The notes under the pieces: generated by a model | The model's input: the letters and a program-made list of their open reading frames with translations, nothing else | Told to the model about the DNA's origin: nothing | Database searches by the model: none | Virus record (IMG/VR): IMGVR_UViG_3300037852_000040 | Location: 1-46,085 of that record | DNA: 46,085 bases | Source: a virus | Reading direction: 5' to 3' (one strand) | Made by a program: the position numbers and the translations under genes | Shown here: one piece after another, positions 4,711 through 44,260 of the stretch | Layout of the letters: every line of letters begins with the position of its first letter | How positions within the stretch are numbered: position 1 is the first letter of the stretch

Positions 4711-5110
4711 CATGCTTATCCGGTTGCCACACACAAACGCTTGAGAGGTACTAGATGTTGATCGAACGCCGAGGCTTGTTGACCGGGATCGTCGCAACTC
4801 TTTGCGCGCCTTCAATTGTGCGCGCGGGATCATTGATGCGGATCGCTGGCGAGCGGTATCGAATTTGGGGGTTTTCGTGTCCTTTGCTGCCGCCAGCGGA
4901 GGCGGCCTACAACAATCCGGCTTTATGGGACAAATATCTCGGGCCAACTCGCCGCCTTCAATTCGGAACATGGACGTTTTTCGGCAAAACCGGGAACGTC
5001 TATACCGACGACGTGATTGACTTTGCGAAGCAGGAATATCCGGATGCGCTCCCGTGGCCTGCGCATCAGGCACAAGATGTAGGGCTGTGTGTCTAAACCG
5101 GATAAGCATG
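4711..5110 (+). mobile_element. Mobile single-gene cassette, copy 1
   Basis: 400 bp bounded by perfect 15-bp inverted repeats CATGCTTATCCGGTT (4711-4725) and its reverse complement (5096-5110). The match resumes after three bases with ACACACA. It is flanked by a perfect 8-bp target duplication TGCTATAT (4703-4710 and 5111-5118). It has no transposase; the only cargo is the gene 4755-5096, whose start codon follows the shared left end. The left end differs slightly from copies 2 and 3 (CTTGAGAGGTACTAG instead of CTGAGACCTACTAG). The right end is identical to copy 2 over about 40 bp. It interrupts the gene at 4578. Confidence 0.9.
4755..5096 (+). CDS. Cassette cargo: Tat-signal-like exported protein
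   Basis: 113 residues. N-terminus MLIERRGLLTGIVATLCAPS then IVRAGSLM: a twin-arginine pair, hydrophobic stretch and possible cleavage after VRA, resembling a Tat signal. This type of RRGLLTG...RAGSLM start is familiar from small proteins in phages of rhizobia. The mature part is aromatic (RYRIWGFSCP, WTFFGKTGN). The ATG directly follows the TAG that ends the interrupted upstream gene, with GAGAGG as ribosome site, all inside the cassette left end. The TAA stop lies in the right end. Role unknown. Confidence 0.7.
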   Translation: MLIERRGLLTGIVATLCAPSIVRAGSLMRIAGERYRIWGFSCPLLPPAEAAYNNPALWDKYLGPTRRLQFGTWTFFGKTGNVYTDDVIDFAKQEYPDALPWPAHQAQDVGLCV

Positions 5111-5178
5111 TGCTATATTATGGCCGTGGGCTCAAAAGATTGCGCTGGAAGCACTCGACTAACAAGAGATATGTCGAA

Positions 5179-5433
5179 ATGGGCGATCATCGCTTTGAAT
5201 TAAAGGCTGAATTTTCCATGCACGGGCATGAGAAGAAAATAAATTGGAATCTAAATTGGAGCGATAGTATCCCCGAGCGCTTGGCGGAATGGGTTGAACA
5301 ACAGTATCAAGAAGCCATGAATTTCTGGTACGAAGCCGAATGGACCGCCGAAGATCATCGTAACGCCGAAATAGAGAGAACCGAACGGGCAGAGTTGGAT
5401 CGCCTTAAAGCCAAATACGAACCGCCACACTAA
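5179..5433 (+). CDS. Hypothetical charged helical protein, 84 aa
   Basis: ATG at 5179, shortly after the stop of the interrupted gene, so before the cassette insertion it was the next gene in the run. The C-terminal half (ERLAEWVEQQYQEAMNFWYE then AEIERTERAELDRLK) is a long charged helix. The frame is open upstream into the cassette end, but those residues are cassette-derived. No domain recognised. Confidence 0.65.
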   Translation: MGDHRFELKAEFSMHGHEKKINWNLNWSDSIPERLAEWVEQQYQEAMNFWYEAEWTAEDHRNAEIERTERAELDRLKAKYEPPH

Positions 5434-5445
5434 ACAAGAGTTAGC

Positions 5446-5679
5446 ATGGTCATGAGCCAATATCTTTCGCTTTACGATGCCCAGACTGAAATCCTGCAGT
5501 GGCTTGAATCGAAAGGCCACGCGGTTGATTATGGTTCTGGCAAACCTCTCGATGATTGGCGGGTATGGCAGATGTGCAAAAGAAAGCGGCGGTTTCAGAT
5601 GCGTCCAGAGGAAGATGAGCGTCGCCGCGTGTACGCCTGTCCGCATTGCGAGGGCTGGCATTTTACCCGGCGCCGATAG
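5446..5679 (+). CDS. Small protein with C-terminal CPHC knuckle
   Basis: 77 residues; AAGAG at 5436-5440 fits the ATG at 5446, and an ATG at 5452 is an alternative. The N-terminal half is mixed. The C-terminus reads RRRVYACPHCEGWHFTRR, a single zinc knuckle of the CPxCxxWHxT type seen at the end of many small phage proteins. A basic stretch (KRKRRFQMRPEEDERRR) precedes it, so nucleic-acid binding is plausible but not shown. Confidence 0.65.
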   Translation: MVMSQYLSLYDAQTEILQWLESKGHAVDYGSGKPLDDWRVWQMCKRKRRFQMRPEEDERRRVYACPHCEGWHFTRRR

Positions 5680-5707
5680 TAGACAAGTTAACACGCAGGA
5701 GCTTGGA

Positions 5708-5986
5708 ATGAGCAATACTGACGGACAGCGCGATATCACCTTGGCGATGGAAGCAGAACTCGCGACAGTGTCTAAGACCACCGTGGCAGCAGCAGCCAAA
5801 GCGGCGGAAGATCAAGACATCGCCTATGTGATGACGCAGCAGATCAACTGCATCATCGATGCCAATGTGCGGCTTCGCGGCTCGCACCGCCTCGTCGGCG
5901 CCGATGTCCAGGCGTGGGTCAACATGGTGGATTATCTGACGCGGGAAAAGGAAGGACTTACCGCAAAGCGCCAGCGGCAGAACTAA
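5708..5986 (+). CDS. Hypothetical helical protein, 92 aa
   Basis: ATG at 5708 with AGGAG at 5697-5701, preceded by GTTAACAC. The protein is entirely helical, with an Ala-rich segment (TVAAAAKAAEDQD) and a C-terminal WVNMVDYLTREKEGLTAKR. Last gene of the left plus-strand block. Its stop overlaps by four bases the stop of the convergent lysis-side gene, so no room remains for a terminator between them. Confidence 0.65.
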   Translation: MSNTDGQRDITLAMEAELATVSKTTVAAAAKAAEDQDIAYVMTQQINCIIDANVRLRGSHRLVGADVQAWVNMVDYLTREKEGLTAKRQRQN

Positions 5987-6234
5987 TCAGCTTTCTTATC
6001 AAGCCGCGCCTCGATCTCGCCAGTTGTCGGTCGGGTCTGTTCAAGCGTCTTAACCCGATCTTCGAGCCGGGTTGTCTCCCGCTGGTAATCACCTTTCAAC
6101 TCATTCAATCGTTCTTTGGTGTTTTTGGCAAATTCCTCATGCTCGCGGATCGACAGACTCTTGCCGAGCATTTGGGAGGCAAGAGTGATTGCAGAGAGGA
6201 TGACCGCGCCAAGTGCAATGTAGGTGGGGTCCAT
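5983..6234 (-). CDS. Small membrane-anchored coiled-coil protein (lysis cassette)
   Basis: 83 residues. One N-terminal transmembrane helix (YIALGAVILSAITLASQML) is followed by a charged helix with heptad character (EEFAKNTKERLNELKGDYQR onward). This is the architecture of an inner-membrane spanin or a lysis accessory protein. It abuts the next gene, with one shared base at 6234. No Lipobox partner is obvious, so a Rz/Rz1-type assignment remains an inference. It is the last gene of the minus-strand late transcript. Confidence 0.6.
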   Translation of the reverse strand: MDPTYIALGAVILSAITLASQMLGKSLSIREHEEFAKNTKERLNELKGDYQRETTRLEDRVKTLEQTRPTTGEIEARLDKKAD

Positions 6235-6587
6235 CAGCCATGCGGCAATTCAATCCGCCTCAACCGCTGCTCGTGGTCTTTCGTAATGTCTTTCAGGTCG
6301 GAATCAATCTGTGTCTCGGTCTTGATATGATCGTCGAGCTTGGTCGTCAGCACATTCAAATTGGTTATGGCCTGTTGCTGGGCATCGTTGATCTTGCTGA
6401 TGGCGGTCCACTGCAATTGAATGCCGGTTTCGGATTTGGTTTTAACATCGACAAGCGTGCCCCAGGCCAAATAGATCGCGGCCGTGCCGGCGGCGCCGAT
6501 GAGCGTGATGAGGATTCGGAATACCCAAGCGGTTGCCCGTTCCTTGGTCTCGACGAATTCCTGTAGCGTCATGCCGATCCTGCTCAT
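6234..6587 (-). CDS. Membrane protein with coiled coil (lysis cassette)
   Basis: 117 residues: a short amphipathic N-terminus, a transmembrane helix (FRILITLIGAAGTAAIYLAW) near residues 23-42, and then a long charged helical domain (AISKINDAQQQAITNLNVLT onward). It lies between the outer-membrane-like protein and the 83-aa membrane protein, so a role in late membrane disruption or as a spanin-like component is likely. I cannot assign it to a named family. Confidence 0.6.
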   Translation of the reverse strand: MSRIGMTLQEFVETKERATAWVFRILITLIGAAGTAAIYLAWGTLVDVKTKSETGIQLQWTAISKINDAQQQAITNLNVLTTKLDDHIKTETQIDSDLKDITKDHEQRLRRIELPHG

Positions 6588-6653
6588 TTCGCGCCCGCCA
6601 ATACTAACGTCTTCGAAGTTTCGTGCTACTCATCCACAAGTCCCGGTACGAAA

Positions 6654-6684
6654 GTATGGGGCCGCATTGGCGCGCGCCCCATAC
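6654..6684 (-). terminator. Possible terminator hairpin
   Basis: Perfect 9-bp stem GTATGGGGC / GCCCCATAC with a 13-base loop, in the 124-base gap downstream of the outer-membrane-like gene on the minus strand. On that strand it is followed by TTT then mixed sequence, so intrinsic termination would be weak. It could instead stabilise mRNA or partly separate expression of the two downstream lysis genes. Confidence 0.4.
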
Positions 6685-6711
6685 CGACTGACTGACGCTA
6701 CTCCCTCGACG

Positions 6712-7509
6712 TTACAGGCCGAATTCGTAACTCAACCGCGTCCAATACTGCGTGCCGAGGTTGGCGCCCGCACTGAGTGTGAGCGGAGCGCCGTTTGTCG
6801 CGAAGGCGTTACCCATGGTGAAACCCTTGACCGGGAATGCAACGCCGGCAGAAGCATCGATCGCGCCGCCGTTCGGCTTGCCATCGGTGCCGAGCGTAGG
6901 CCAAATGAAGCCGCCAGTAATCATCGGGTAAGCGCCAACGGTCGTGCCGTTCGCGTTACCGAAGCTGCCACTGATTCCGGCTTCTTTGAGGCCAACGCCG
7001 ACGTATTGCCGTGGTGCTCCGACAGGAACGGTCGGGGGAATCGGCGTGAAGGTCGGAAAGTTCGTCACCGGCAACGTCGGGAGGGCCGCATAAATCTTTT
7101 GCAGCCATTCAAAGCCGATGTCGAATTCCTGCGTCGCGGCCCATCGACTTGCGATTGCTGCGCTGGCTGCGCTTGTCGTGGCAGTTGCCTGCACCGTATT
7201 GGTGCCAGTGATATTCGACCATTCGCCGGTCAATTTGCCTCTGCACCATCCGATAGCGCAGTGGCCGACATAACCGACTTCGCCGCCGACCGCGCCACCC
7301 GTCGCCGTGAGATTGCCGCTTGCGAGACTCGTGGCAAAGACATTGGTGCCGCTGACACTCGACTGCGCGACATCAGCCTCGGTGAGGATACCGACAAACC
7401 AGCTGGAACCGGCCGCGGTAGCTGCCGGTGCCTTCAATGGCAAGTCTGCCGCCAGAGCCGGTACTGCCAGCGCGGTAAGCGCCATGGTAAGCAGTAGCAA
7501 TTTGCGCAT
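6712..7509 (-). CDS. Outer-membrane beta-barrel-like protein with signal peptide
   Basis: 265 residues. Start chosen at the ATG preceded by AGGAGG with six-base spacing. The signal peptide MRKLLLLTMALTALAVPALA is followed by ADLPLKAP, the mature-end signature of Omp25/31-type outer-membrane proteins of Bradyrhizobium and relatives. The rest is Gly/Thr-rich with alternating strands and ends in an aromatic/Leu pattern (TRLSYEFGL), as in beta-barrels. A host-type surface protein inside a phage lysis region is unusual. It may alter the infected cell surface, for example to exclude superinfection, or be a captured host gene. The exact barrel family is uncertain. Confidence 0.65.
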   Translation of the reverse strand: MRKLLLLTMALTALAVPALAADLPLKAPAATAAGSSWFVGILTEADVAQSSVSGTNVFATSLASGNLTATGGAVGGEVGYVGHCAIGWCRGKLTGEWSNITGTNTVQATATTSAASAAIASRWAATQEFDIGFEWLQKIYAALPTLPVTNFPTFTPIPPTVPVGAPRQYVGVGLKEAGISGSFGNANGTTVGAYPMITGGFIWPTLGTDGKPNGGAIDASAGVAFPVKGFTMGNAFATNGAPLTLSAGANLGTQYWTRLSYEFGL

Positions 7510-7582
7510 GGAAACCTCCTGTTGAGTTACGTGGTCAACCATACGCTTTTAGTTGTGTCTTTGGTGCAACACAGTTTGGAAA

Positions 7583-7810
7583 TCAGCGACCGATCGCGCC
7601 TCCCGGCTGCGTGCCAGGGGAGTTTGCTGGAGCGCCAATGACCTTGCCGGTGCGATTGTTTACTACACTCCACACTGCGGCGCCCACCGCAACTATGGCG
7701 GCGGTAATGTCACCGACATCGCTCTGGGTAATCCATCCCTTTGCGACCGCATAGGCGAGAGCCGGCGGAATGATAGCACGCAGAATTCCAGTGATTTGAT
7801 CGTAGTTCAT
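7583..7810 (-). CDS. Holin
   Basis: 75 residues: MNYDQITGILRAIIPPALAY then AVAKGWITQSDVGDITAAIV and AVGAAVWSVVNN. Two hydrophobic segments separated by a short polar turn and a polar C-terminus match small phage holins from alpha- and gammaproteobacterial phages. These proteins pore the inner membrane to release endolysin. The endolysin gene is two genes upstream, which supports the assignment. Confidence 0.75.
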   Translation of the reverse strand: MNYDQITGILRAIIPPALAYAVAKGWITQSDVGDITAAIVAVGAAVWSVVNNRTGKVIGAPANSPGTQPGGAIGR

Positions 7811-7811
7811 G

Positions 7812-8051
7812 TCACTTCCCCTGATTGACTGGTTTGAAGTTTACGATGCCACCCCACCAAAAATGACAACACAGAAAGCCGGTCAAAAACCCGGCAATCC
7901 ATGGAAATGGCGGAAACGCGGCCGTGATGTTCCAGACAAAACGCGACAGCGTGGATGTTCCGTCATAGAGCGAATAGCCTTCCATCACCGAGAAGCTGAT
8001 GACGATCAGCAATAGCCACACCGCCCATTTGATGCTGCCTTTCATCATCAT
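7812..8051 (-). CDS. Two-helix membrane protein of the lysis cassette
   Basis: 79 residues with two transmembrane helices (WAVWLLLIVISFSVMEGYSL and FPWIAGFLTGFLCCHFWWG). The HFWWGGIVNFKPV end is a conserved feature of a family found next to endolysin and holin genes in rhizobial and related phages. It overlaps the endolysin stop by four bases. It may be a second holin or an antiholin; the sequence does not decide which. Confidence 0.65.
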   Translation of the reverse strand: MMMKGSIKWAVWLLLIVISFSVMEGYSLYDGTSTLSRFVWNITAAFPPFPWIAGFLTGFLCCHFWWGGIVNFKPVNQGK

Positions 8052-8629
8052 ACCGTCTCCCTCGTGAAGGTTACTGTCGGATCAAGTTTTGCAATCATCC
8101 ACAAAAGCGGCGCACAGCCAGGTTGCGGGTCCATGACGGTCGATGACCAGACATGATCGCGAATCCATTTGCCGGGTTGCTGAATGTTCGTGCAGCCCCA
8201 AATGTACGACGATGGATGGCCCCACGCTTCCGAGCCGACGCCATTGAACAGCAGCATATAGTAGAGCTGCTTCTCGAGCCGCCAATCGCTGATGCTGCCC
8301 CAGCCCTCGACATTGATAGCATCCACACCACCGTCAATGAAAGCATTTGGGCCAATGAAAGGACCGCGCCCCACGGGCACTTCCGTGGTTCTGAGCGTCA
8401 GCGTTTGGCCGTTGCCTAAATAGGTTTTGAAATTCGCATCGCTCTCGCGGCGATGAATGCAAGCGAGCATTTGCCATGGCACACGGGTCTTGGATTCGAG
8501 TACCTGATATGTGACTTTGTTGTTGATCGCAAACTGCGCCTCCTCCGTGAATGCCTGCACGCGGCCGGCATTGATGGTCATTGCGTCCCACCATTTCGCA
8601 TAGCGCGGCCAGATGTCGGAGTAGCGCAT
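8048..8629 (-). CDS. Endolysin, lysozyme-like
   Basis: 193 residues. It is predicted to cut peptidoglycan glycan chains at the end of infection. The block CIHRRESDANFKTYLGNGQT then TEVPVGRGPF is the signature of a phage lysozyme-like family, with Glu62 as the likely catalytic acid. There is no signal peptide, so release would depend on the adjacent holin. It shares one base with the end of the tail-fibre gene at 8629 and overlaps the next membrane gene. Confidence 0.8.
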   Translation of the reverse strand: MRYSDIWPRYAKWWDAMTINAGRVQAFTEEAQFAINNKVTYQVLESKTRVPWQMLACIHRRESDANFKTYLGNGQTLTLRTTEVPVGRGPFIGPNAFIDGGVDAINVEGWGSISDWRLEKQLYYMLLFNGVGSEAWGHPSSYIWGCTNIQQPGKWIRDHVWSSTVMDPQPGCAPLLWMIAKLDPTVTFTRETV

Positions 8630-11169: not shown

Positions 11170-11170
11170 T

Positions 11171-11740: not shown

Positions 11741-11833
11741 GCGGCGGAACGCTAGGCGCGGCTGCCCGCCACGGCAACGCACGGTCCCGTGCTATCTCCC
11801 GGTCCATAAGGCTGCGGCAGCGGCGCAGGCCCA

Positions 11834-34927: not shown

Positions 34928-34943
34928 CATTTCACGTGAAACA
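34928..34943. other. parS: parS-like palindrome, site 1 (degenerate)
   Basis: CATTTCACGTGAAACA differs from the ParB-binding parS consensus TGTTTCACGTGAAACA only at the first two bases. It lies directly before the IS1595-family element, whose 8-bp duplication AAACATTA takes in the right arm of the palindrome. Read on the other strand, the pre-insertion sequence contains TAATGTTTCACGTGAAA, identical over 17 bases to site 2 at 39658-39674. Confidence 0.6.
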
Positions 34944-35016
34944 TTAGGGAATTATATACTTGACTCCATTTCCGATTTGGGCTAGTTTTCGGGCATGAAT
35001 TGAGGGAAAAACGGCC

Positions 35017-35946
35017 ATGTCCAAGTCCACCATTTCGACGTTTGAACTGTTCGCCCTGATCCCCGATGCGGAGACGGCGCGGACCTATTTGGAGGCCCGC
35101 CTGTGGCCGAACGGGGCAACCTGCCCGGTCTGCGGCCTTGGCGAGCGGGTGACGGTTCGGAAGGGCAAGCCCGGCTTCTACCACTGCCAACAGTGCGCAG
35201 AGGACTTTACGGTGCGCACCGGCACGATATTCGAGCGCAGCCATGTCCCGCTGCACAAGTGGGTTTACGCGATGTACCTGCTCGTAACGGCCCGCAAGGG
35301 CATATCCAGCCTGCAACTCGCCAAGGAAATCGGCGTCACCCAAAAGTCGGCTTGGTTCATGTTGCAGCGGCTCCGCGAAGCCTGCGGAAAAGACCTGACT
35401 ATGCTTCAAGGGCTGGTCGAGGTTGATGAAACCTACGTGGGCGGCTTGGAGGCCAACAAGCACGAAGCCGACAAACTGCGCATGGGGCGCGGCCCGGTCG
35501 GCAAGCAGCCCGTTTTGGGCTTGCGGGAAAAGGGCAAAGGTGGTCGCGTCAAGGCGTTCAAGATCGACAGTACCGACGCGGGCACGATCACCGATGTCAT
35601 CGTTCAAAACGTGGCGGTCGGATCGACCCTGCACACTGACGAAGCCCAAGCCTACGGCGAGATCGGCGGCCTGTTCTTCGATCATGCGACGGTCAACCAC
35701 TCGGCTGGCGAATACGTCAAGGACGGCGTTTCGACCAATTCGATTGAGTCCGTTTTCGCGGTTTTGAAGCGCGGCCTGATCGGCGTCTACCATCACGCCA
35801 GCCCCAAGCATATCGGCCGCTACGTTGACGAATTTGCGTTCCGGTTGAACGAGGGCAACGTGGCCCGGCACACCCTGGAACGGCTGGACTCGTTCGTCAG
35901 TCGCGTTGCGGGCAAGCGGCTCACCTATAAGGCGCTGATCGCATGA
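35017..35946 (+). CDS. IS1595-family (ISXO2-like) transposase
   Basis: 309 residues. An N-terminal zinc ribbon CPVCG (36-40) with CQQC (57-60), a helix-turn-helix-like segment (SSLQLAKEIGVTQKSAWFML), then the DDE-type core with VEVDETYVGG (Asp137), LHTDEAQAY (Asp208) and NSIESVFAVLKRG (Asn241/Glu244). Full length for the family and without frameshift, so probably active. It could also act on the short element at 37796 that has the same ends. Confidence 0.93.
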   Translation: MSKSTISTFELFALIPDAETARTYLEARLWPNGATCPVCGLGERVTVRKGKPGFYHCQQCAEDFTVRTGTIFERSHVPLHKWVYAMYLLVTARKGISSLQLAKEIGVTQKSAWFMLQRLREACGKDLTMLQGLVEVDETYVGGLEANKHEADKLRMGRGPVGKQPVLGLREKGKGGRVKAFKIDSTDAGTITDVIVQNVAVGSTLHTDEAQAYGEIGGLFFDHATVNHSAGEYVKDGVSTNSIESVFAVLKRGLIGVYHHASPKHIGRYVDEFAFRLNEGNVARHTLERLDSFVSRVAGKRLTYKALIA

Positions 35947-36074
35947 GCGCGCCAGCGAAGCCCCCAGCGGCGTTAGACGCGATTGCGGACAAGGTTCTCC
36001 GCTACCGTCCCAAGCCCAAAACGAAACCAGCGAAAAGGCGCAAACGCCGTGCCCGCCTATTACAACGAGATTGA
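35943..36074 (+). CDS. Small basic IS passenger protein, 43 aa
   Basis: ATGA overlap with the transposase stop. Product MSAPAKPPAALDAIADKVLR then YRPKPKTKPAKRRKRR is strongly basic. Small ORFs with this SAPAK...YRPKPK pattern follow IS1595 transposases in other rhizobial elements I recall, so it is probably part of the element. It overlaps the start of the methylase. Confidence 0.5.
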   Translation: MSAPAKPPAALDAIADKVLRYRPKPKTKPAKRRKRRARLLQRD

Positions 36075-36921
36075 CCCCCATGCCGCACAGTGGCTCCGCA
36101 ATCTTATCTCCGCTGGTCACATTGCAGCGGGGGACGTTGACGAGCGATCTATCGTTGACGTGCGGCCCGACGACCTTGGCGGATACGAGCAAGCCCATTT
36201 CTTCGCCGGTATCGGCGGATGGTCCTACGCCTTGCGGCTCGCCGGATGGCCCGATGATCGATCGATCTGGACCGGCTCCTGTCCGTGTCAGCCGCTTTCG
36301 AGCGCGGGACAACGCAAGGGCCATGCCGACGAACGACACCTCTGGCCCGCTTTTTACCGCCTCATCGCCGAGTGCGCGCCTGCAATCGTCTTTGGAGAAC
36401 AGGTTGCGAGCAAGGATGGACGTGAATGGCTCGCCGGAGTTCGCGCTGACTTGGAAGCATTGGGATTTACCTGCGGGGCCGCCGATCTGTGCGCTGCGGG
36501 CGTCGGCGCGCCCCATATCCGTCAACGGCTCTATTGGGGTGCCGACGCCGGTAGTACCGAACGGTGGTCGCCGGCCGAAGGGCGGGGCGATGTCGCTCAA
36601 AGGCCAGACGCCAGACGGCAAAAAACGACAGGTCGATCTGGATTTCTTTGTCCGCCGAGCCTTGGCACACCCGACGCCGATGCACGGCGCACAGAACGAG
36701 GCGGCGCACAATGCGATGTCGGGCCAGTGGAAAACGGCCATTGGTCGGATGTCGAATGGGTCGCGGCTGGCGACGAAGGGCAGTTCCGCATTAAACCCGG
36801 CATATCCTTGCTGGCTCATGGGATTCCCGGACGTGTGGGACGGATTCGCGGGTACGGCAACGCGATTGTCCCGCAAGTCGCGTCCGAGTTCGTGAGCGCC
36901 TTCATGGAAAGTCGCCCTTGA
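36049..36921 (+). CDS. C5-cytosine DNA methyltransferase (IS passenger)
   Basis: 290 residues with GTG start preceded by AAAGG. It transfers a methyl group to C5 of cytosine. Motifs: HFFAGIGGW (50-58) for SAM, GSCPCQPLS (77-84) with catalytic Cys80, FGEQVASKDGREWLAGVRAD in place of the usual ENV region, AAGVGAPHIRQRLYW, and a C-terminal GYGNAIVPQVASEF. It lies inside the IS and ends 32 bases before its right end, so it moves with the element. The middle (target-recognition) region is short. A second frame over the same bases also looks protein-like. Confidence 0.85.
   Translation: MPAYYNEIDPHAAQWLRNLISAGHIAAGDVDERSIVDVRPDDLGGYEQAHFFAGIGGWSYALRLAGWPDDRSIWTGSCPCQPLSSAGQRKGHADERHLWPAFYRLIAECAPAIVFGEQVASKDGREWLAGVRADLEALGFTCGAADLCAAGVGAPHIRQRLYWGADAGSTERWSPAEGRGDVAQRPDARRQKTTGRSGFLCPPSLGTPDADARRTERGGAQCDVGPVENGHWSDVEWVAAGDEGQFRIKPGISLLAHGIPGRVGRIRGYGNAIVPQVASEFVSAFMESRP
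36071..36895 (+). CDS. Alternate-frame ORF over the methyltransferase (dual coding?)
   Basis: 274 codons open in another frame of the methylase gene. From about residue 95 it reads SGPLFTASSPSARLQSSLEN, GSPEFALTWKHWDLPAGPP and ICALRAS, then later NPAYPCWLMGFPDVWDGFAG. Segments of this kind appear in many annotated phage proteins of unknown function. Either both frames are used or database entries of this kind are shadows of the methylase gene. I favour the methylase as the real product. Confidence 0.25.
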   Translation: MTPMPHSGSAILSPLVTLQRGTLTSDLSLTCGPTTLADTSKPISSPVSADGPTPCGSPDGPMIDRSGPAPVRVSRFRARDNARAMPTNDTSGPLFTASSPSARLQSSLENRLRARMDVNGSPEFALTWKHWDLPAGPPICALRASARPISVNGSIGVPTPVVPNGGRRPKGGAMSLKGQTPDGKKRQVDLDFFVRRALAHPTPMHGAQNEAAHNAMSGQWKTAIGRMSNGSRLATKGSSALNPAYPCWLMGFPDVWDGFAGTATRLSRKSRPSS

Positions 36922-37041
36922 AATGAGCGAATGGACTCATGTATATAATTCCCAAACATTATAAGCCAGTCACAACTGCTCCACCCCGCCAAGTGATTGT
37001 AGCAGAAAATCTGTGTGCGGCAATTAGGAGCCGACGCAAAC

Positions 37042-37554: not shown

Positions 37555-37795
37555 GCTGTTGGCTTCGCTGTCCTTGGCTATCGCCTGCGGACTGGTCCTC
37601 GTTCGGCTGATCGCCTCACTGCGGGTTGAAAAGAGGGCGGGCGCGATGCGTGACGCGCGATTGGATGCGTCATTTTTGGTTTATTCGGCAACGCACGGCG
37701 ACAAAACCGCATGAAATATGGGCTTTTGTGCTGTGTGAAATAGGTCAGCATTGCTGCTTGATCTCGGCGAGGGTTATTTGCCATATGCAAATTAT
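37555..37795. other. Gene-poor region upstream of the HTH gene
   Basis: 241 bases with no convincing gene. A minus-strand frame 37578-37784 (68 codons) is basic and low in information. AT-richer stretches near 37680-37795 could hold the promoter for the HTH gene on the minus strand and for 38087 on the plus strand. No clear -35/-10 pair seen. Confidence 0.4.
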
Positions 37796-38080
37796 GGGAA
37801 TTATATACTTGAGTCCCGAGGCGCCCAAATAGGAGGCAACAGTGAGCGAGCGAACGGTTTACCGGCACAAAAGGCGAGGCGCCATCTACGAGGTCTTGCA
37901 TGACAACGCATGCTTGGAGTGTTCCGCCGCGCCAGAGTTCGAAAAGATGTTCGATGAGGATCATTTCGTCGTTTATCGGAGCATTCACAGCGCGGCTGTC
38001 TACGTTCGGCCCTACCCGGAGTTTCACGATGGCCGTTTCGAAGCGATCCCCGATCCCAGGGACTCAAGTATATAATTCCC
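37796..38080 (+). mobile_element. Transposase-less IS1595-type cassette with one gene
   Basis: 285 bp with perfect 22-bp inverted ends (GGGAATTATATACTTGAG TCCC, 37796-37817, and its complement at 38059-38080). It is flanked by a perfect 8-bp duplication CAAATTAT (37788-37795 and 38081-38088). The ends match those of the IS at 34947 at 20 of 21 bases on the better side, so that transposase probably mobilises it in trans. It carries only the gene 37842-38075. The right duplication contains the first two bases of the ATG of the downstream gene at 38087. Confidence 0.92.
37842..38075 (+). CDS. DUF1653-like protein carried by the mini-element
   Basis: 77 residues, GTG start with AGGAGG at 37831-37836. 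TVYRHKRRGAIYEVLHDNAC, then DHFVVYRSIHSAAVYVRPYP and EFHDGRFEAI follow the layout of DUF1653-type and related small phage proteins (YRH-KGG-YEVL ... VVY ... VRP--EF-DGRFE). The stop codon lies inside the right inverted repeat, and the ribosome site inside the element, so the gene and its translation signals move as a unit. Function of the family is unknown. Confidence 0.75.
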   Translation: MSERTVYRHKRRGAIYEVLHDNACLECSAAPEFEKMFDEDHFVVYRSIHSAAVYVRPYPEFHDGRFEAIPDPRDSSI

Positions 38081-38086
38081 CAAATT

Positions 38087-38302
38087 ATGGTGCGCCCATG
38101 CCTAGACCCTGACGCGCGTCGTGTTGCGTTATCGTTGTTGGCGCGGGGTCTCGGCAGTCCTGGCGAGATTGCCGACTTGGCCGGCGTATCGCGGCAGGTT
38201 GTTGAGGGTTGGGCGCTGATTGCCGATATGGATTGGCGCCAGATCAAGCGCGCGAGATTGGCAAAGGCGTGGCGCAAGGAATGGGATCGTGTCCGGCCGT
38301 AA
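38087..38302 (+). CDS. Small helix-turn-helix protein, 71 aa
   Basis: ATG at 38087 begins in the right-hand duplication of the mini-element. LLARGLGSPGEIADLAGVSR QVVEGWAL is a helix-turn-helix, followed by a basic helix (RARLAKAWRKEWDRVR). Probably DNA-binding. The insertion has replaced its native upstream sequence, so its expression may be changed. The stop overlaps the next small gene by 14 bases. Confidence 0.6.
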   Translation: MVRPCLDPDARRVALSLLARGLGSPGEIADLAGVSRQVVEGWALIADMDWRQIKRARLAKAWRKEWDRVRP

Positions 38303-38426
38303 TTGGGCAAGAGCGCGCAAGTTGGCAGATGCTGAAAAGCCGCAAGAGGCTTGCGACATCGGCCTATTCAGCGATGACATGGATCAGGTCGAAATGTTCA
38401 TGGAGCCCACAAACGACATGCCGTGA
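38289..38426 (+). CDS. Small hypothetical protein, 45 aa (GTG start)
   Basis: GTG at 38289 with AAGGAA spaced eight bases. Product begins MSGRNWARARKLADAEKPQE and ends acidic. It overlaps the preceding gene and is followed by a strong hairpin. No family recognised. Confidence 0.45.
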   Translation: MSGRNWARARKLADAEKPQEACDIGLFSDDMDQVEMFMEPTNDMP

Positions 38427-38470
38427 CGCGGCTATGCCGCTTCCTTTGGCGGCACTGCGCCGGAACGGCA

Positions 38471-38944: not shown

Positions 38945-39066
38945 TGGAAATACCGCCGCGGCGGCGGATCGAACGTATCGTCACCGCGGCTCGAGAACAC
39001 GCACGCCAGCCCGATTCCGCCCCAGACTGCGACCGCAAAGCCGACGATGTAATAAACCGCGCTCAA
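38941..39066 (-). CDS. Small membrane protein, 41 aa (TTG start)
   Basis: TTG at 39066 overlaps the stop of the upstream gene and its own stop overlaps the TTG of the next, both as TTGA. One transmembrane helix (VYYIVGFAVAVWGGIGLACV) and a polar tail with FDPPPRRYFH. Too short to match a family. It could be a small inner-membrane accessory or holin-like protein. Confidence 0.5.
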   Translation of the reverse strand: MSAVYYIVGFAVAVWGGIGLACVFSSRGDDTFDPPPRRYFH

Positions 39067-39248
39067 TGCACTGTCTCCGATTTGAGCACATACCACGGGC
39101 TATAGCGAAAAACCTCGCGGGCCGCCTCGCGAATGCGCCGGTCCGGCTCGTGGCCGAACACGTAGCGCAGATATTTGAAGCACGCCGCCTCGTAGCGCGA
39201 TTGGATGGTCTTGGGGCCAAGTGAGGACGATTTGCTGCCGTAGCTCAT
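39063..39248 (-). CDS. Hypothetical protein, 61 aa
   Basis: ATG at 39248 with GAGAGG twelve bases away. MSYGSKSSSLGPKTIQSRYE then AACFKYLRYVFGHEPDRRIR is helical and basic. Coupled to the small membrane gene. The cassette inserted at 39268 lies 19 bases upstream of its start and may have changed its expression. Function unknown. Confidence 0.55.
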   Translation of the reverse strand: MSYGSKSSSLGPKTIQSRYEAACFKYLRYVFGHEPDRRIREAAREVFRYSPWYVLKSETVH

Positions 39249-39267
39249 TGCCGCCTCTCTAATGTTT

Positions 39268-39657
39268 CATGCTTATCCGGTTTAGACACACAGCCCTACA
39301 TCTTGTGGTTATGTTTCGACGTTTGCACGCGGTTCATTAAATAATCTGCATGGATCATCTGGCCATTCCATGCGATCATGTAGGTTGCCGTGGCGGAAAG
39401 ACTCATAGTCTTCCTCGCCAGAGCCTATAGAGCGGCGCAACATTTCCGTACATCGCAGGCAAACCACGGTCTTGAGATTACGAGTTATGGCCAGATGACC
39501 ACACGCTAGCTCTACGATGCGTCGGGTCTGGTCTTTGCCGAGACGATCCCGATTAAAGCCAGTCGCTATAATGTCGGTTCGCACAATTCGTTCGGGTGGT
39601 GTTTGGATCAACATCTAGTAGGTCTCAGCGTTTGTGTGTGGCAACCGGATAAGCATG
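39268..39657 (-). mobile_element. Mobile single-gene cassette, copy 2 (inverted)
   Basis: 390 bp in reverse orientation, with 15-bp ends CATGCTTATCCGGTT at both termini and a perfect 8-bp target duplication TAATGTTT (39260-39267 and 39658-39665). The left (gene-start) end is identical to copy 3 over 50 bases; the right end is identical to copy 1 over about 40 bases. Cargo is one gene, 39309-39614, different from the cargo of the others. The target is the arm of a parS-like palindrome. Confidence 0.92.
39309..39614 (-). CDS. Cassette cargo: small Cys/His protein, 101 aa
   Basis: Begins MLIQTPPERIVRTDIIATGF; the first codons ATGTTGATC are shared with copy 1 cargo and the ATG follows TAG directly in the cassette end. 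RRIVELACGHLAITRNLKTV VCLRCTEMLRR contains a CGH and CxxC set of the type seen in small zinc-ribbon phage proteins. The C-terminal part is acidic/polar. Function unknown. Confidence 0.65.
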   Translation of the reverse strand: MLIQTPPERIVRTDIIATGFNRDRLGKDQTRRIVELACGHLAITRNLKTVVCLRCTEMLRRSIGSGEEDYESFRHGNLHDRMEWPDDPCRLFNEPRANVET

Positions 39658-39660
39658 TAA

Positions 39661-39676
39661 TGTTTCACGTGAAACA
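39661..39676. other. parS: parS-like palindrome, site 2 (perfect consensus)
   Basis: TGTTTCACGTGAAACA is an exact match to the 16-bp chromosomal parS site bound by ParB in many bacteria. It starts inside the right duplication of cassette copy 2 and ends two bases before the stop codon of the DUF1376 gene. No parA or parB gene is present, so a host ParB would have to bind it. A phage regulator that uses the same palindrome is the alternative. Confidence 0.7.
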
Positions 39677-39677
39677 C

Positions 39678-40181
39678 TCACGGCACCCAACCCTTCGCCC
39701 TCACAATCTCATCGAGGGAGGCAGATGGCGCAAGCGTTTTTTCTTGCTTTCTCGCTGGACCAGCGACCGTAGTTCTAGGCTCAGACTCTAAGGAAGATTC
39801 TATAGGTGATTGTGATTGTGTGTGCATTTGCCGAGCAATTGCCGGGTACGCACCCGTGAATTTTCTGTTTGTTCGTTCCGCACCCTTGAAGCCAGCAACG
39901 GCGCGCTTAGTGCTGATATCATTGGCCTTTTTTAATTCTTCCTCGATGCGTTTATGCTTCCATCCAGGCTGAAACATTCCGGCAATTGCCGAGCAATTGC
40001 TGCGCCACTGGTCACGGTTTAATCGCGAAATCCCGGCAATTGCCGCTTCGCTGTCCGGCAGCTTCCCGTGCTGCCAATAGTGCATGATAAGCAAAAGGTA
40101 GGCGCCGTGCTGAGCTGCCGTCAAATGCTGGGTGTCGGCCAGGTAATCGCCAATATAGAGCGGCATCCAAGCGCGGCTCAT
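39678..40181 (-). CDS. DUF1376 protein, possible replication/primosome factor
   Basis: 167 residues beginning MSRAWMPLYIGDYLADTQHL TAAQHGAYLLLIMHYWQHGK. This start is the defining block of DUF1376, a winged-helix-like domain of phage and prophage replication-region proteins. SRLNRDQWRSNCSAIAGMFQ and a basic tail follow. It probably helps load the host helicase or recognise an origin; the role is inferred from family context. It overlaps the HNH gene by four bases. Confidence 0.75.
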   Translation of the reverse strand: MSRAWMPLYIGDYLADTQHLTAAQHGAYLLLIMHYWQHGKLPDSEAAIAGISRLNRDQWRSNCSAIAGMFQPGWKHKRIEEELKKANDISTKRAVAGFKGAERTNRKFTGAYPAIARQMHTQSQSPIESSLESEPRTTVAGPARKQEKTLAPSASLDEIVRAKGWVP

Positions 40182-40615
40182 TCGGCGGCCTTGTTCGATG
40201 CAATCCACTCCGCCTCGATTTCCCGCCACAAGGCACGATAATCACGTGTCGCCTGTTGCCGGATCGGGCCATTTTCGCCGTTGATCTTGAGCCATCCTAG
40301 CTGTTGCAGCCGAAACCGCTTGGCCGGATCGATCGCATTGAGGATTTCGAGCTCGCGCGAGGGGGACCAGCGCCAGTCGGTCATGTCGCGGTTGCTCTTG
40401 CCGAGATTGCAGCGTCGACAAAGTACCTGAAGATTCGACCAGGCTAGCGAAAGCCGCGGAAAATGCGACCGCGGCTTGATATGGTCAACCTGTAGGGGAT
40501 TATCCGCATCGCCGCGGAAGCCGCAGCATTGGCAATAGCCATTGGCAAGCTTCAACGCCTTGTAGCGAGCCTTGAGCCATTCCGGGCTGTCGTAGAACGG
40601 ATCGCGGCGCTCCAT
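40178..40615 (-). CDS. HNH endonuclease
   Basis: 145 residues. YCQCCGFRGDADNPLQVDHI KPRSHFPRLSLAWSNLQVLC RRCNLGKSN is a classic HNH core with two CxxC zinc pairs. The C-terminal half is helical and charged. In the operon with GcrA-like and DUF1376 genes. It could be a packaging-associated HNH or a genome-editing/anti-competitor nuclease; position away from terL makes packaging less likely. Confidence 0.82.
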   Translation of the reverse strand: MERRDPFYDSPEWLKARYKALKLANGYCQCCGFRGDADNPLQVDHIKPRSHFPRLSLAWSNLQVLCRRCNLGKSNRDMTDWRWSPSRELEILNAIDPAKRFRLQQLGWLKINGENGPIRQQATRDYRALWREIEAEWIASNKAAE

Positions 40616-41121
40616 TACGACTCCCCGCGCGCTCGATATGCCATCTGGCAATGAAACCGGCAATACGGCACTGCATCATCTTTTGCTGCACCGCAATACA
40701 GCATGTCGCGGCCGGGCTCGCCGAGCGGCCATCGGCATGTGGTCGAGGTCAGCCCAAAAATATCCACCGCGCTCGCTGGCGTAGGGATGGCCGGTAGATC
40801 GGTTAGGCCGGGAGGCTGTGAGACGCCCAGCGCATGAAAGGCCATTCCCTGACCTTCCTGGCGCGATTGGCGGGGCTTCCTAGGGGTATTGAGCGTAATC
40901 CGCACATTGCCGATGCCATGCCGCAATTGCCGGGTTTTCCTTTTCACGATGACCCGTTTCGGCAACCCAAGCCTGATGATCTTGGCGACGACCGCGTTGC
41001 GGGTAATGCCGTCGCCGAGCTCGCGGGCTATCTCGCCGCCCGACATGCCGTCGCTGTGGCATTGCCGCAACACTTGCACGCGGGTCTCGGTCCAGAATGT
41101 GCCGGCGCCGGCGGGCATCAT
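40615..41121 (-). CDS. gcrA: GcrA-family transcription regulator
   Basis: 168 residues. The N-terminal WTETRVQVLRQCHSDGMSGG EIARELGDGITRNAVVAKII RLGLPKR is the GcrA DNA-binding helix-turn-helix; the C-terminal CRWPLGEPGRDMLYCGAAKD and YCRFHCQMAYR is its second conserved block. GcrA is a sigma70-associated cell-cycle activator in alphaproteobacteria whose targets are influenced by adenine methylation (GANTC). A phage copy may redirect host transcription. Stop-start TAATG overlap with the HNH gene and ATGA with the repressor. Confidence 0.9.
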   Translation of the reverse strand: MMPAGAGTFWTETRVQVLRQCHSDGMSGGEIARELGDGITRNAVVAKIIRLGLPKRVIVKRKTRQLRHGIGNVRITLNTPRKPRQSRQEGQGMAFHALGVSQPPGLTDLPAIPTPASAVDIFGLTSTTCRWPLGEPGRDMLYCGAAKDDAVPYCRFHCQMAYRARGES

Positions 41122-41333
41122 TCCGCCGCCTGTTGTCGTTGTCGGTGGGCAAATTCAAAGGCCATGTCGGCCAGCACCCGCTCGATCAGCTTAGGTGCCG
41201 ACCCCTTCTTGGGCGGCCCATGGTTTTCCCAATCGGTGTAAGTCGATCGGTCGACGCCAAATCTTCGGGCAAACACATCCTGGGTTTCGGCCATACGGCG
41301 CCTTGCGCGCCAAAGAGTGGTTGCTGTGACCAT
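41118..41333 (-). CDS. Small XRE-type repressor
   Basis: 71 residues. WRARRRMAETQDVFARRFGV DRSTYTDWENHGPPKKG is a compact helix-turn-helix of the Cro/CI type. The ATG at 41333 is six to seven bases downstream of a good sigma70 promoter (41340-41368), so its transcript may be leaderless. It is first gene of the minus-strand regulator operon and is divergent from the Bet operon, suggesting it controls that promoter region. Confidence 0.75.
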   Translation of the reverse strand: MVTATTLWRARRRMAETQDVFARRFGVDRSTYTDWENHGPPKKGSAPKLIERVLADMAFEFAHRQRQQAAE

Positions 41334-41339
41334 GGTGGC

Positions 41340-41368
41340 AGCATAAATATTTTTTGGTGCGAAGTCAA
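41340..41368 (-). promoter_or_regulatory. Sigma70-like promoter of the repressor operon
   Basis: On the minus strand TTGACT (41363-41368), 17-base spacer, TATGCT (41340-41345). The expected start lies at about 41333, which is the A of the repressor ATG. No ribosome site lies before that ATG, in line with leaderless translation. The spacer is AT-rich, and the divergent plus-strand genes begin at 41412, so repressor binding here could act on both sides. Confidence 0.6.
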
Positions 41369-41411
41369 CATTGGCGCTTGCATTATTTTGCGGATGTGGG
41401 AATATCACAAA

Positions 41412-41516
41412 ATGAGCCACGAGAGCGACGGTAGTCCGATCTTGGCCATCATCATGCCTGCGCTGTGGGCGCTGGCGATCGGGATTATCGCTTGGAGGCA
41501 ATGGCATGGCCGGTAG
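41412..41516 (+). CDS. Small membrane protein, 34 aa
   Basis: MSHESDGSPILAIIMPALWA then LAIGIIAWRQWHGR: one transmembrane helix. ATG at 41412; an ATG at 41394 would add six residues. It is the first gene of the rightward operon and overlaps the next gene by 11 bases. Membrane role unknown. Confidence 0.5.
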   Translation: MSHESDGSPILAIIMPALWALAIGIIAWRQWHGR

Positions 41517-41697
41517 CCTGCGCGACCAGCTTTGCGCCGCTCACACGCTGGCATGGCAGCAGCAGCGCCACGAGGACGAGATCGCTTTGCTCCGCGCTAT
41601 CGCCAAGATCGACGGCAAGCCGCTGCGGCACCATCGTGATACGCGCGACGATTTTCAAAAGGATTACGACGAGGAACAAGAAGGGACCTACCGATGA
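41506..41697 (+). CDS. Hypothetical protein, 63 aa
   Basis: Helical, charged: SLRDQLCAAHTLAWQQQRHE then DEIALLRAIAKIDGKPLRHH. It overlaps the previous stop and the next start (ATGA at 41694), so it is co-translated with Bet. No family recognised. Confidence 0.6.
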   Translation: MAGSLRDQLCAAHTLAWQQQRHEDEIALLRAIAKIDGKPLRHHRDTRDDFQKDYDEEQEGTYR

Positions 41698-42563
41698 ACG
41701 TGCCAGCCATCAAAACCGCAACCGCGGTTGCCTCCCACCCATTCAGTGCCGACCAGATCGACCTTATCAAGCGCACCATCTGTAAAGGCTCGACCGACGA
41801 CGAACTCCGGCTATTCCTATATCAGGCCGGCCGCACCGGGCTCGATCCGCTCGCTCGACAAATCTATTCGATCGAGCGGCGTGAATACCGCGACGGCCAA
41901 TGGGTCAAGGCGCGATCAATACAGACATCGATCGATGGTTTCCGCCTGATCGCCGAACGCAGTGGCAAGTACGCCGGCCAGGTCGGCCCGTATTGGTGCG
42001 GCGCCGACGGCCAATGGCAAGACGTATGGATCGCGCCGGAATCGCCGATCGCCGCCCGGGTTGGGGTGCTGCGCACCGATTTCAAGGAACCATGCTGGGG
42101 CGTGGCGCGCTTCGATGCCTACGCGCAAAAGACCAAGGACGGCGTTCCGACGCGCATGTGGAAAACCATGGGCGACGTTATGGTGGCGAAGTGCGCCGAA
42201 GCACTGGCGCTGCGCAAGGCATTTCCGCAAGAACTATCCGGTCTCTACACCGGCGATGAAATGATGCAGGCGGTCGAGGATTTCACACCGCCAGCGCCGA
42301 AGAAAACAATCGCCGAAGATTTGAACGATGAAATTCCGTTCGGTGGCGACACGCCGAAGGCCGCTCCTGCTCAAAGCCCCCCCAGCCCTCAGGCAGGAGC
42401 GGCCAGTGCGCCCGTCGATGTGCTGGCGATGGCGCGTGAGGCCGCAAGCCACGGCTTCGATATGCTGAACACCTACTACAAAACGCTCGGCAAGAAGGAT
42501 CAGAAAATTCTCAACGAGCATAAAGTTGAACTCGAAGCGCTGTTTCCGATCGATGCGGAATAG
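41694..42563 (+). CDS. bet: Phage recombination protein Bet (RecT-family annealase)
   Basis: 289 residues. The single-strand annealing protein of phage homologous recombination. FSADQIDLIKRTICKGSTDD ELRLFLYQAGRTGLDPLARQ IYSIERRE is the conserved start; TSIDGFRLIAERSGKYAG and GDVMVAKCAEALALRKAFPQ ELSGLYTGDEM follow in the family order. A Pro/Ala-rich linker (PKAAPAQSPPSPQAGAA) leads to a short C-terminal helix. No exonuclease partner is recognisable in the window. Bet-type proteins can recombine cassette ends of the kind seen here. Confidence 0.92.
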   Translation: MNVPAIKTATAVASHPFSADQIDLIKRTICKGSTDDELRLFLYQAGRTGLDPLARQIYSIERREYRDGQWVKARSIQTSIDGFRLIAERSGKYAGQVGPYWCGADGQWQDVWIAPESPIAARVGVLRTDFKEPCWGVARFDAYAQKTKDGVPTRMWKTMGDVMVAKCAEALALRKAFPQELSGLYTGDEMMQAVEDFTPPAPKKTIAEDLNDEIPFGGDTPKAAPAQSPPSPQAGAASAPVDVLAMAREAASHGFDMLNTYYKTLGKKDQKILNEHKVELEALFPIDAE

Positions 42564-42591
42564 CCGCTCACGACAGGTTAGTGGGAAAACC

Positions 42592-43329
42592 ATGGCAGAA
42601 ATATCGGGAATTTCTTGGACAGACGCTACGTTCAATCCGTGGATTGGATGCACGCGCGTAAGCCCCGCGTGTGATCGTTGCTATGCGGCCCGTGACAATG
42701 AACGCTGGAATTGGGTGCCCGGCTGGGGCGCAGGCGTCGCTAGGCGCCGCACGTCGGTCCAGAACTGGAACAAGGTGCTCAAATGGAATCGCGAAGCAGC
42801 GGCTTCGGGAAGGCCGCTACGGGTGTTCTGTGCGTCGCTCGCCGACGTGTTTGATAACGAGATCGAGCAGGCGTGGCGCAACGACCTGTGGGACTTGCTT
42901 CGCGCTACGCCAAATCTGCGGTGGATACTTCTGACCAAGCGGATAGGCAACGCGCCGAAGATGCTACCCGCGTTCTGGCCCATGGCGCACGTCGGCTTGA
43001 TGTCCACCCTCGAAAATCAAGAGGTATGGGACCGGGATTATCACAAGCTCGAAGCCGTGCCGGCGGCTTGGCATGGGGTGTCCGCCGAACCGTTGCTCAG
43101 CCATATCGATATCGGCGACGCTAAGCCGGATTGGATCATCACGGGCGGTGAAAGCGGCCCCGGCTTCCGGCCCCTCGATATGGATGCCGTGCGCTCGCTT
43201 CGCGATCAATGCCGACGCAACGGCATCACTTTCCACCACAAGCAAAACGGCGGTATTCGCGGGAAGGATGCCGGCTGTTTGGTCGATGGTGTCGAGCATA
43301 AATATTTTCCGCCAGCGTTGGCGGCTTAG
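42592..43329 (+). CDS. DUF5131 / phage Gp37-Gp68 family protein
   Basis: 245 residues. SWTDATFNPWIGCTRVSPAC DRCYA is the characteristic start, with the CTRVSPACDRC cysteines; then CASLADVFDNEIEQAW, WILLTKR and DWIITGGESGPG, RPLDMDAVRSLRDQCR, FHHKQNGG in the expected order. The family has a TIM-barrel, radical-SAM-like layout, and a nucleic-acid-modifying role has been suspected but not shown. It lies two genes and a cassette from a true CxxxCxxC radical SAM-like gene. Confidence 0.88.
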   Translation: MAEISGISWTDATFNPWIGCTRVSPACDRCYAARDNERWNWVPGWGAGVARRRTSVQNWNKVLKWNREAAASGRPLRVFCASLADVFDNEIEQAWRNDLWDLLRATPNLRWILLTKRIGNAPKMLPAFWPMAHVGLMSTLENQEVWDRDYHKLEAVPAAWHGVSAEPLLSHIDIGDAKPDWIITGGESGPGFRPLDMDAVRSLRDQCRRNGITFHHKQNGGIRGKDAGCLVDGVEHKYFPPALAA

Positions 43330-43364
43330 GCACTATCAACAAGTATGTCGCCAACTTAGAGGTA
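43327..43364 (+). repeat. Direct repeat, copy 1 (38 bp)
   Basis: TAGGCACT, ten variable bases, then ATGTCGCCAACTTAGAGGTA. An identically spaced copy lies at 45943-45980. The first three bases are the stop codon of the DUF5131 gene. Both copies lie just upstream of a gene start (43375 and 45986). It could be a promoter or operator element, or the trace of a duplicated segment. Confidence 0.65.
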
Positions 43365-43374
43365 GGAGAACACC

Positions 43375-43797
43375 GTGAACAAGCGCAGACTTCTGAGGTT
43401 GGCCGATCTGCTCGACGCAGACGCCAAGAACGAGGCGGGTGTCAAATTTAATCTGAGCGGGTGGGGTAGTTCGTCTACAGGCGCCCCGGCTAATGTTTCC
43501 TGCGGCACCACGGCATGTGCGATGGGGCTGGCGGTACTAAGTGGCGCGTTCGAACAAGACGGCCTCAGAAACGGATTTGGGCCGCGCTCATGCTCGGTCA
43601 TTCCTTATTTTCAAACAGGGCAGAAAGTTGTGTCAGGCTTCAAGGCCGCGGCGAATCTGTTTGGCATTAGCCACAAGGCAGCCGAATGGCTCTTTCAAGA
43701 TGACCACTACCGCAAAAGCCAATGGACTGGTGCCGCAGGCGAACGCGCCGTGGCCCGCCGTATTCGCAAGTTCGTTGCTGGCGAAGCGCGACCGTAA
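43375..43797 (+). CDS. Conserved phage/plasmid hypothetical protein
   Basis: 140 residues, GTG start with AGGAG six bases before. RRLLRLADLLDADAKNEAGV KFNLSGWG, then VSCGTTACAMGLAVLSGAF, and AAEWLFQDDHYRKSQWTGAA GERAVARRIRKFVAGEA. This is a common family on rhizobial phages and plasmids, with a CGTTACAMG Cys motif and no known function. The cassette copy 3 follows 19 bases downstream. Confidence 0.75.
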   Translation: MNKRRLLRLADLLDADAKNEAGVKFNLSGWGSSSTGAPANVSCGTTACAMGLAVLSGAFEQDGLRNGFGPRSCSVIPYFQTGQKVVSGFKAAANLFGISHKAAEWLFQDDHYRKSQWTGAAGERAVARRIRKFVAGEARP

Positions 43798-43816
43798 GAC
43801 GGCGGCTGATACGGAA

Positions 43817-44260
43817 CATGCTTATCCGGTTGCCACACACAAACGCTGAGACCTACTAGATGTTGAAAACCCTCGTTTGGCCTGAGAAAAGCTATCAGTC
43901 GCTCGACCAAGGCATCCGATTTGCAGTGCGCGTTCTTCACGCGGCCGGGTTTGAAACCTGCCAGTCATGCCAGGGCGGTAAAGGGCACGCCTACAGCGAC
44001 CCTACGGTTGATCTGAGAGCGGAAGCTGACGACGCCCGTGGTTTTGGAGCGCTCGCGGCGCTGCGAACCTACGGGCTTCCCATCGCGGAGGTAGCCATCG
44101 TTTGGCCTGTGCGGAACGGCTGCCCCTACGAGAAACTTTGGCGCATCACATTCAGCAAAACAATGGAAGATCGCGCCGATGAGAAGCCGAGTTTTGTTTT
44201 CGGGTATGCCGCAACATGACCGCAAGATATGGGGCTGTGTGTCTAAACCGGATAAGCATG
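43817..44260 (+). mobile_element. Mobile single-gene cassette, copy 3
   Basis: 444 bp with perfect 15-bp inverted ends CATGCTTATCCGGTT (43817-43831 and 44246-44260). The left end matches copy 2 over 50 bases; the right end is slightly diverged (CGCAAGATATGGGGC). Flanks ATACGGAA and GTTAGCAG do not match, so there is no target duplication. It may be old, or have arrived by recombination between cassette ends. Cargo is gene 43860-44219. The flanks GGCTGATACGGAA and GTTAGCAGGGAGATT resemble the contiguous sequence at 109-137. Confidence 0.88.
43860..44219 (+). CDS. Cassette cargo: phage-type hypothetical protein, 119 aa
   Basis: Starts MLKTLVWPEKSYQSLDQGIR; ATG directly after TAG within the shared cassette end. 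RFAVRVLHAAGFETCQSCQG GKGHAYSDPTVDL and GLPIAEVAIVWPVRNGCPYE KLWRITF belong to a phage family in which FESCQGG-GH-YPEPTV is followed by a WPV block. Function unknown. It is a third, unrelated cargo type, showing that the cassette ends carry different genes. Confidence 0.75.
   Translation: MLKTLVWPEKSYQSLDQGIRFAVRVLHAAGFETCQSCQGGKGHAYSDPTVDLRAEADDARGFGALAALRTYGLPIAEVAIVWPVRNGCPYEKLWRITFSKTMEDRADEKPSFVFGYAAT

Follow-up and report, generated by a model that had tools for sequence, protein, structure and literature searches.

The 46-kb IMG/VR virus record IMGVR_UViG_3300037852_000040 (46,085 nucleotides; the window, meaning this whole stretch) belongs to a tailed phage, with PHROGs matches to a terminase, a major head protein, a head–tail adaptor, a lytic tail or internal protein and a RecT-like annealing protein. 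It carries three short elements with the same ends and different genes. In all likelihood, these are single-gene cassettes without a promoter, which an IS1595-family transposase mobilises in trans and which are expressed by read-through. An earlier note, made from the letters of the window, had described them as a transposable gene-cassette format; the same ends with other cargo, empty sites and a transposase-bearing relative were all found, in agreement with that description.

Cassette ends, family size and the partner transposase

The sequence CATGCTTATCCGGTT is present in the window in six exact copies, which make up three inward-facing pairs and give each element the perfect 15-bp inverted repeats (IRs) reported earlier. 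In 100 shuffled versions of the window, matches with up to three mismatches averaged 1.05, and none of the 100 versions reached six. The conserved borders, also reported, are longer than the repeats: the left border begins with CATGCTTATCCGGTTGCCACACACAAACGCT and is identical over 31/31 bp, the right border closes with GGGCTGTGTGTCTAAACCGGATAAGCATG and is 95–100% identical over 38–40 bp, and the interiors differ. Cassettes 1 and 2 are bounded by perfect 8-bp target duplications and cassette 3 is not, as the note had it. The features of the three cassettes are as follows.

4711..5110, + strand: cassette 1, 400 bp; IRs 4711–4725 and 5096–5110
4703–4710 and 5111–5118: duplication of cassette 1, TGCTATAT, perfect 8 bp
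4755..5096, + strand: cargo of cassette 1, 113 amino acids (aa); twin-arginine-like signal (ERRGLLTG...); no Pfam or PHROGs match above cut-off
39268..39657, − strand: cassette 2 (inverted), 390 bp; IRs 39268–39282 and 39643–39657
39260–39267 and 39658–39665: duplication of cassette 2, TAATGTTT, perfect 8 bp
39309..39614, − strand: cargo of cassette 2, 101 aa; contains Cys/His; no family match
43817..44260, + strand: cassette 3, 444 bp; IRs 43817–43831 and 44246–44260; target duplication absent
43860..44219, + strand: cargo of cassette 3, 119 aa

None of the three cargo proteins obtained a name from Pfam, PHROGs or a DNA comparison with cultured phages, and the ‘GH-type’ label given earlier to the third finds no support in Pfam or PHROGs. 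The third has a relative (69% at the amino-acid level, ratio of non-synonymous to synonymous substitutions (dN/dS) about 0.12) in a cassette at a different site, locus L105. Around cassette 1 (window 4600–5160), the last codons of the upstream open reading frame (ORF) are replaced by a tail read from the left end of the cassette; when the flanks are rejoined by script, this ORF gains about 15 codons, which the cassette has replaced.

The family is much larger than the window. The pattern CATGCTTATCCGGTTNNNACACAC was found in 110 stretches of IMG/VR viral contigs (about 97 contigs) and in eight stretches of GTDB genomes (257 Gb), including Bradyrhizobium and Rhodoplanes; six of 300 genomes from the family of the Bradyrhizobium host match the cassette ends. 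Matches to the 50-bp left end were absent from 50,697 records of cultured phages and 72,556 of plasmids, which may explain why the cassettes went unnoticed. Pairing of the ends yields 109 elements (90 distinct) of 275–2124 bp, and 69 of the 109 are bounded by a perfect 8-bp duplication. Six of the 90 distinct elements encode a transposase and 84 do not. A comparison of cargo proteins over all 90 gives 66 clusters, so that the same ends do occur with other cargo. The variant ends CATGCCTATCGGGTT and CATGCTTTTCGGGTT are represented by just three and eight stretches, mostly on contigs known to carry the partner insertion sequence (IS) described below; the cassettes thus look like one expanded end lineage and seem to be largely confined to one end type.

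The full-length relative with the same ends belongs to the IS1595 family. Elements of 1.3–2.1 kb, with identical 15-bp ends and 8-bp duplications, encode a transposase of 346–357 aa, which contains an IS1595 (ISXO2-like) DDE domain (PF12762, E 7e-34) and an N-terminal zinc ribbon (PF12760, E 3e-11); these matches, like those of a further IS in the window, are above the curated cut-offs. The partner transposase is encoded at 34 viral loci, with 19 intact copies having matching ends and perfect 8-bp duplications, and nine contigs carry both the transposase and cassette-type ends. Its closest named relative is ISAcr1 (63% identity); a plasmid copy of a similarly close relative, 1150 bp long, has the ends CGTGCCTATCCGCTT, in which 15/15 end bases match, and an 8-bp duplication. 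Target duplications of 8 bp are typical of the IS1595 family and were found for the partner IS copies and the window IS alike. The earlier statement that no transposase is present is therefore correct for the three elements and incorrect for their partners with the same ends. Nor does it apply to the window, since an IS1595 transposase of another subgroup is encoded at 35017–35946. Judging by shared ends and equal duplication length, the enzyme moving the cassettes very probably comes from an IS1595-family transposon that has these ends.

One cassette may record how such elements arise. The 79-aa gene of the cassette at L004:2172-2490 is related (74% at the DNA level) to a stretch of the IS copy at L010:4413-6536, which is probably a passenger gene of that IS, and the relation may represent a possible step from IS to cassette.

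Mobility, cargo and expression

Two empty sites were found in related phages, as a mobile element would predict according to the earlier note. Locus L093 has a single ATCCAAAC where L010, L017 and L045, otherwise about 98% identical to it around the site, hold a 506-bp cassette. The second site lies within a cassette of about 677 bp, which L027 and L032 carry without interruption; its copy in L101 contains an inner 816-bp cassette inserted at a duplicated CTAGTTGT. The same cargo also occurs at different sites: the cassettes of L003 and L019 are 98.4% identical, differ in their duplications and have unrelated flanks, and some ten more pairs with the same cargo (66–92% identity) lie at different sites in unrelated flanks. 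Besides the nested arrangement in L101, adjacent cassettes in L113 are separated by a single 8-bp spacer, and in L005 a cassette lies within the ends of a second IS family. At L102:2080-2560, a cassette is directly bordered by inverted copies of the ends of that second family, a possible hybrid element.

These observations bear on the possibility that the ends serve as recombination homology, with phage recombinases swapping genes between fixed ends and transposition being rare or ancient. The conservation of the ends far beyond the cargo, the RecT-like annealing protein of the window phage and the missing perfect duplication in cassette 3 and 36 other elements would all suit such an exchange. 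Fresh-looking duplications at dozens of sites and the same cargo in unrelated flanks, however, need transposition, and the proposal is unlikely as a whole. The two processes are compatible, and recombination may account for the change of cargo inside fixed ends.

A single ORF spans 70 of the 84 distinct transposase-less cassettes, with a median coding fraction of 0.84. The cargo named by Pfam and PHROGs includes C5, Dam and N6/N4 methyltransferases, Mom, NADAR, RNA ligase, RlaP nucleotidyltransferase, DHH phosphoesterase and PAPS-reductase-like proteins, as well as weak radical-SAM matches; PADLOC adds mainly methyltransferases. Many of these types presumably have known or plausible functions in counter-restriction or repair. 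The majority of the cargo, including the three window genes, is unnamed in Pfam and PHROGs. At L051:3703-4850, a TnpB-like protein (OrfB_IS605 and Cas12f1-like TNB domains) is located between cassette-type ends. Of 13 cargo pairs, 12 have a dN/dS ratio of 0.05–0.40 and the other consists of nearly identical sequences; by this measure the cargo is under purifying selection. The cassettes might also be regarded as inert relics, that is, miniature elements left after loss of the IS transposase, in which any ORF would be accidental or decaying and the cargo of no use. A few elements (e.g., L001, L062 and L086) do lack a spanning ORF. This interpretation was rejected on the coding content and selection: with most cassettes spanned by one ORF, recognisable enzymes, purifying selection and a bias of orientation, it is very unlikely.

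The left end differs between the IS copies and the cassettes. In the former, it contains a promoter-like TTGACA-N17 followed mostly by TAGnnn, with TTGACA in 18 of 19 copies; just 5 of 70 cassettes have kept this hexamer. In an alignment, the −10 region of the IS, CTAGTGTT, corresponds to CTAGATGTT of the cassettes, a few bases further in; thus, the cassette start codon seems to have taken the place of the −10 box. A start codon built into the element, as the earlier note had proposed, applies to the 26 of 70 intact cassettes whose cargo starts at base 44; the remainder start elsewhere, some of them deeper and behind a ribosome-binding site of their own. The three frames that enter from the left all meet their first stop between 30 bases before and 12 bases after the cargo start in 46 of 90 elements, and TAG directly precedes the start in 31 of 70 cassettes. 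This arrangement fits termination–reinitiation, and shared descent of the end could yield the same counts. No promoter was found inside window cassettes 1 and 3 by a strict scan, which is weak evidence because the scan also misses the IS promoter. With the left-end promoter mostly lost and stops often present in all frames around the start, expression by read-through is most likely.

The same features decide on a reading of the ends as promoter or regulatory repeats that flank ordinary phage moron genes and do not transpose, which the earlier note had named as its possible refutation. Such a reading could draw on the promoter-like left ends of the IS copies and on the repeats flanking single accessory genes. 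It was rejected, being refuted as a full account by the duplications at 69 of 109 elements and the empty sites; in addition, both ends are inverted and identical, the same cassette occurs at unrelated sites, most cassettes no longer have the −35 hexamer and no promoter-like site was found in two window cassettes. It is extremely unlikely that the ends are only such repeats.

Target sites are AT-rich and palindromic, with GAT/ATC borders (approximately ATC-AWWNNWWT-GAT). The reconstructed empty sites mostly avoid open frames, 15 of 57 falling within one, versus 71% of random points. The upstream flanking gene is co-directional with the cassette in 38 cases and opposite in 4 (p 6e-8), the downstream one in 40 and 9 cases, respectively; the three window cassettes are co-directional with both neighbours. 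We infer that selection favours insertions that read with the operon.

A mechanism can be proposed for these transposase-less, mostly single-gene mobile insertion cassettes, the ends of which would derive from an IS1595-family IS of related phages. The transposase of this IS, whether provided by the phage itself, by another phage co-infecting the cell or by the host, would bind the shared 15-bp inverted ends in trans and excise or copy the cassette, which would then insert at an AT-rich palindromic target and generate the 8-bp duplication. Surviving insertions would be those that are intergenic and point in the direction of the upstream gene. Expression of the cargo would depend on read-through from the operon of the phage, in many cases via translational coupling, and the cargo may benefit the phage.

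Several points weigh against this mechanism. Action in trans is deduced from the shared ends and equal duplication length, and the IS1595 transposase encoded in the window belongs to an element with different ends, so that the helper for the window phage must come from elsewhere. A perfect duplication is absent in 37 of the 109 elements, cassette 3 among them. No empty site was found via the neighbouring genes for the three window insertions: for cassette 1, the only other relative nearby (L298) is without the flanking gene, and the relatives of cassette 2, apart from one near-identical contig, are at most 52% identical and were left out of the alignment. The orientation counts come from a crude codon-usage score, by which 87 of 150 gene fragments were called confidently, and the L003/L019 pair is too similar for an informative dN/dS.

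A second IS1595 system in the window

The transposase at 35017–35946 belongs to another IS, which is accompanied in the window by a cassette of its own end type.

34947..36953, + strand: IS1595-family insertion sequence, ends GGGAATTATATACTTGA
34939–34946 and 36954–36961: duplication of this IS, AAACATTA
35017..35946, + strand: IS1595-family transposase, 309 aa; PF12762 E 3e-43, PF12760 E 4e-8
35983..36921, + strand: passenger of this IS, C5 cytosine DNA methyltransferase-like ORF; PF00145 E 2e-13
37796..38080, + strand: single-gene cassette with GGGAATTATATACTTGA-type ends, 285 bp
37788–37795 and 38081–38088: duplication of the 285-bp cassette, CAAATTAT
37842..38072, + strand: cargo of the 285-bp cassette, 76 aa; GTG start after GGAGG; stop codon within the right inverted repeat

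The true start of the methyltransferase-like ORF is probably downstream of 35983. The window transposase is about 30% identical to the partner transposase, as measured in a near-identical 98-kb contig. Ends of the GGGAATTATATACTTGA type occur in at least 118 viral stretches and bound 44 distinct elements with 8-bp duplications (up to one mismatch). The left end of the window IS reads TTGACT-N17-TAGTTT, and its cassette has, by eye, no matching −10. This second pair of IS and cassette indicates that the step from IS to cassette occurred in at least two IS1595 subgroups.

A perfect palindrome, TGTTTCACGTGAAACA, which we take to be parS-like, adjoins cassette 2 at 39661–39676, and a 14/16 version of it adjoins the window IS at 34928–34943. 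The sequence TTTCACGTGAAA has only two sites in the window, each of which is an insertion point (of cassette 2 and of the window IS).

Relation to known mobile elements

Mobile insertion cassettes (MICs) consist of inverted repeats with a target duplication and a passenger gene in place of the transposase and are mobilised in trans by a cognate IS (PMC3913671). The earlier note had compared the phage elements with them, and every sequence feature checked agrees: genes without transposase are bracketed by perfect 15-bp ends in 84 distinct elements, the duplication is 8 bp long in both cassettes and IS copies, and a cognate IS with the same ends exists. MIC231 of Bacillus cereus and the qnrD mic share with the phage cassettes this scheme of repeats, duplication and replaced transposase, and by these sequence features the phage elements would work in the manner of mobile insertion cassettes. 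The differences lie in the partner, MIC231 belonging to IS231 and the phage cassettes to IS1595, and in the setting, the MICs described in the literature consulted residing in bacteria or plasmids. The qnrD mic has its own promoter, whereas the phage cassettes are mostly without that of the parent. Unlike MICs, the latter have standardised ends over about 100 contigs and 66 cargo clusters.

Transporter ISs of the IS1595 family are, in the account cited in PMC3129680, IS copies with passenger genes (Siguier et al. 2009). As far as that account goes, the phage IS copies and the window IS, with its transposase and C5 methyltransferase, resemble them, and the cassettes differ in having no transposase whatever. 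ISAcr1 and its IS1595 relatives on alphaproteobacterial plasmids have a transposase 63% identical to that of the phage IS, and one plasmid copy has the matching CGTGCCTATCCGCTT ends; this copy is compact (1150 bp) and has no passenger, whereas the phage IS copies (1.5–2.3 kb) have an extra upstream stretch, usually with an ORF.

Integrons employ a tyrosine integrase acting at attC and attI. Their gene cassettes are similar to the phage cassettes in being mostly promoterless single genes with shared ends and, presumably, an outside promoter. The phage cassettes have, in place of an integrase-specific site and the absence of duplication, inverted repeats, 8-bp duplications, many target sites and a DDE transposase partner.

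MPME1 and MPME2 of mycobacteriophages are likewise ultra-small phage elements with inverted repeats; their content is conserved, and a 6-bp addition is found at one (left) end (PMC3029335). It might be proposed for MPME that the gene moves its own element, and their comparable length of about 440 bp and minimal gene content (PMC3029335) would invite the same proposal here. Self-movement was rejected on the diversity of the cargo, which is unrelated across the 66 clusters, while the ends and the 8-bp duplication are constant and match IS1595; it is hardly credible.

No description of such cassettes in phages was found in the literature searched, most subscription journals being outside its coverage. 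Within that literature, the phage setting, the scale, the involvement of IS1595, the standardised and mostly promoterless ends and the breadth of cargo appear to be new. The chances seem evenly balanced that the cassettes constitute an integron-like exchange system of phages, in which standardised, mostly promoterless adapters, common to many uncultivated phages, would be moved by phage-borne IS1595 transposases and inserted co-directionally between operon genes. They would serve as a shared pool of accessory genes, a prominent part of which would counter defences (methyltransferases, Mom and possibly NADAR and RNA repair). The ends provide a short tag by which accessory genes can be retrieved from viral metagenomes by position, and the genes tagged in this way include numerous functionally unassigned ones that may act against host defences. 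Illegitimate recombination is the usual answer to the long-standing question of how phages acquire single accessory genes (morons) between conserved ones. The cassettes offer a concrete and testable route by transposition, with defined ends, a target motif, a partner enzyme and dozens of cargo families.

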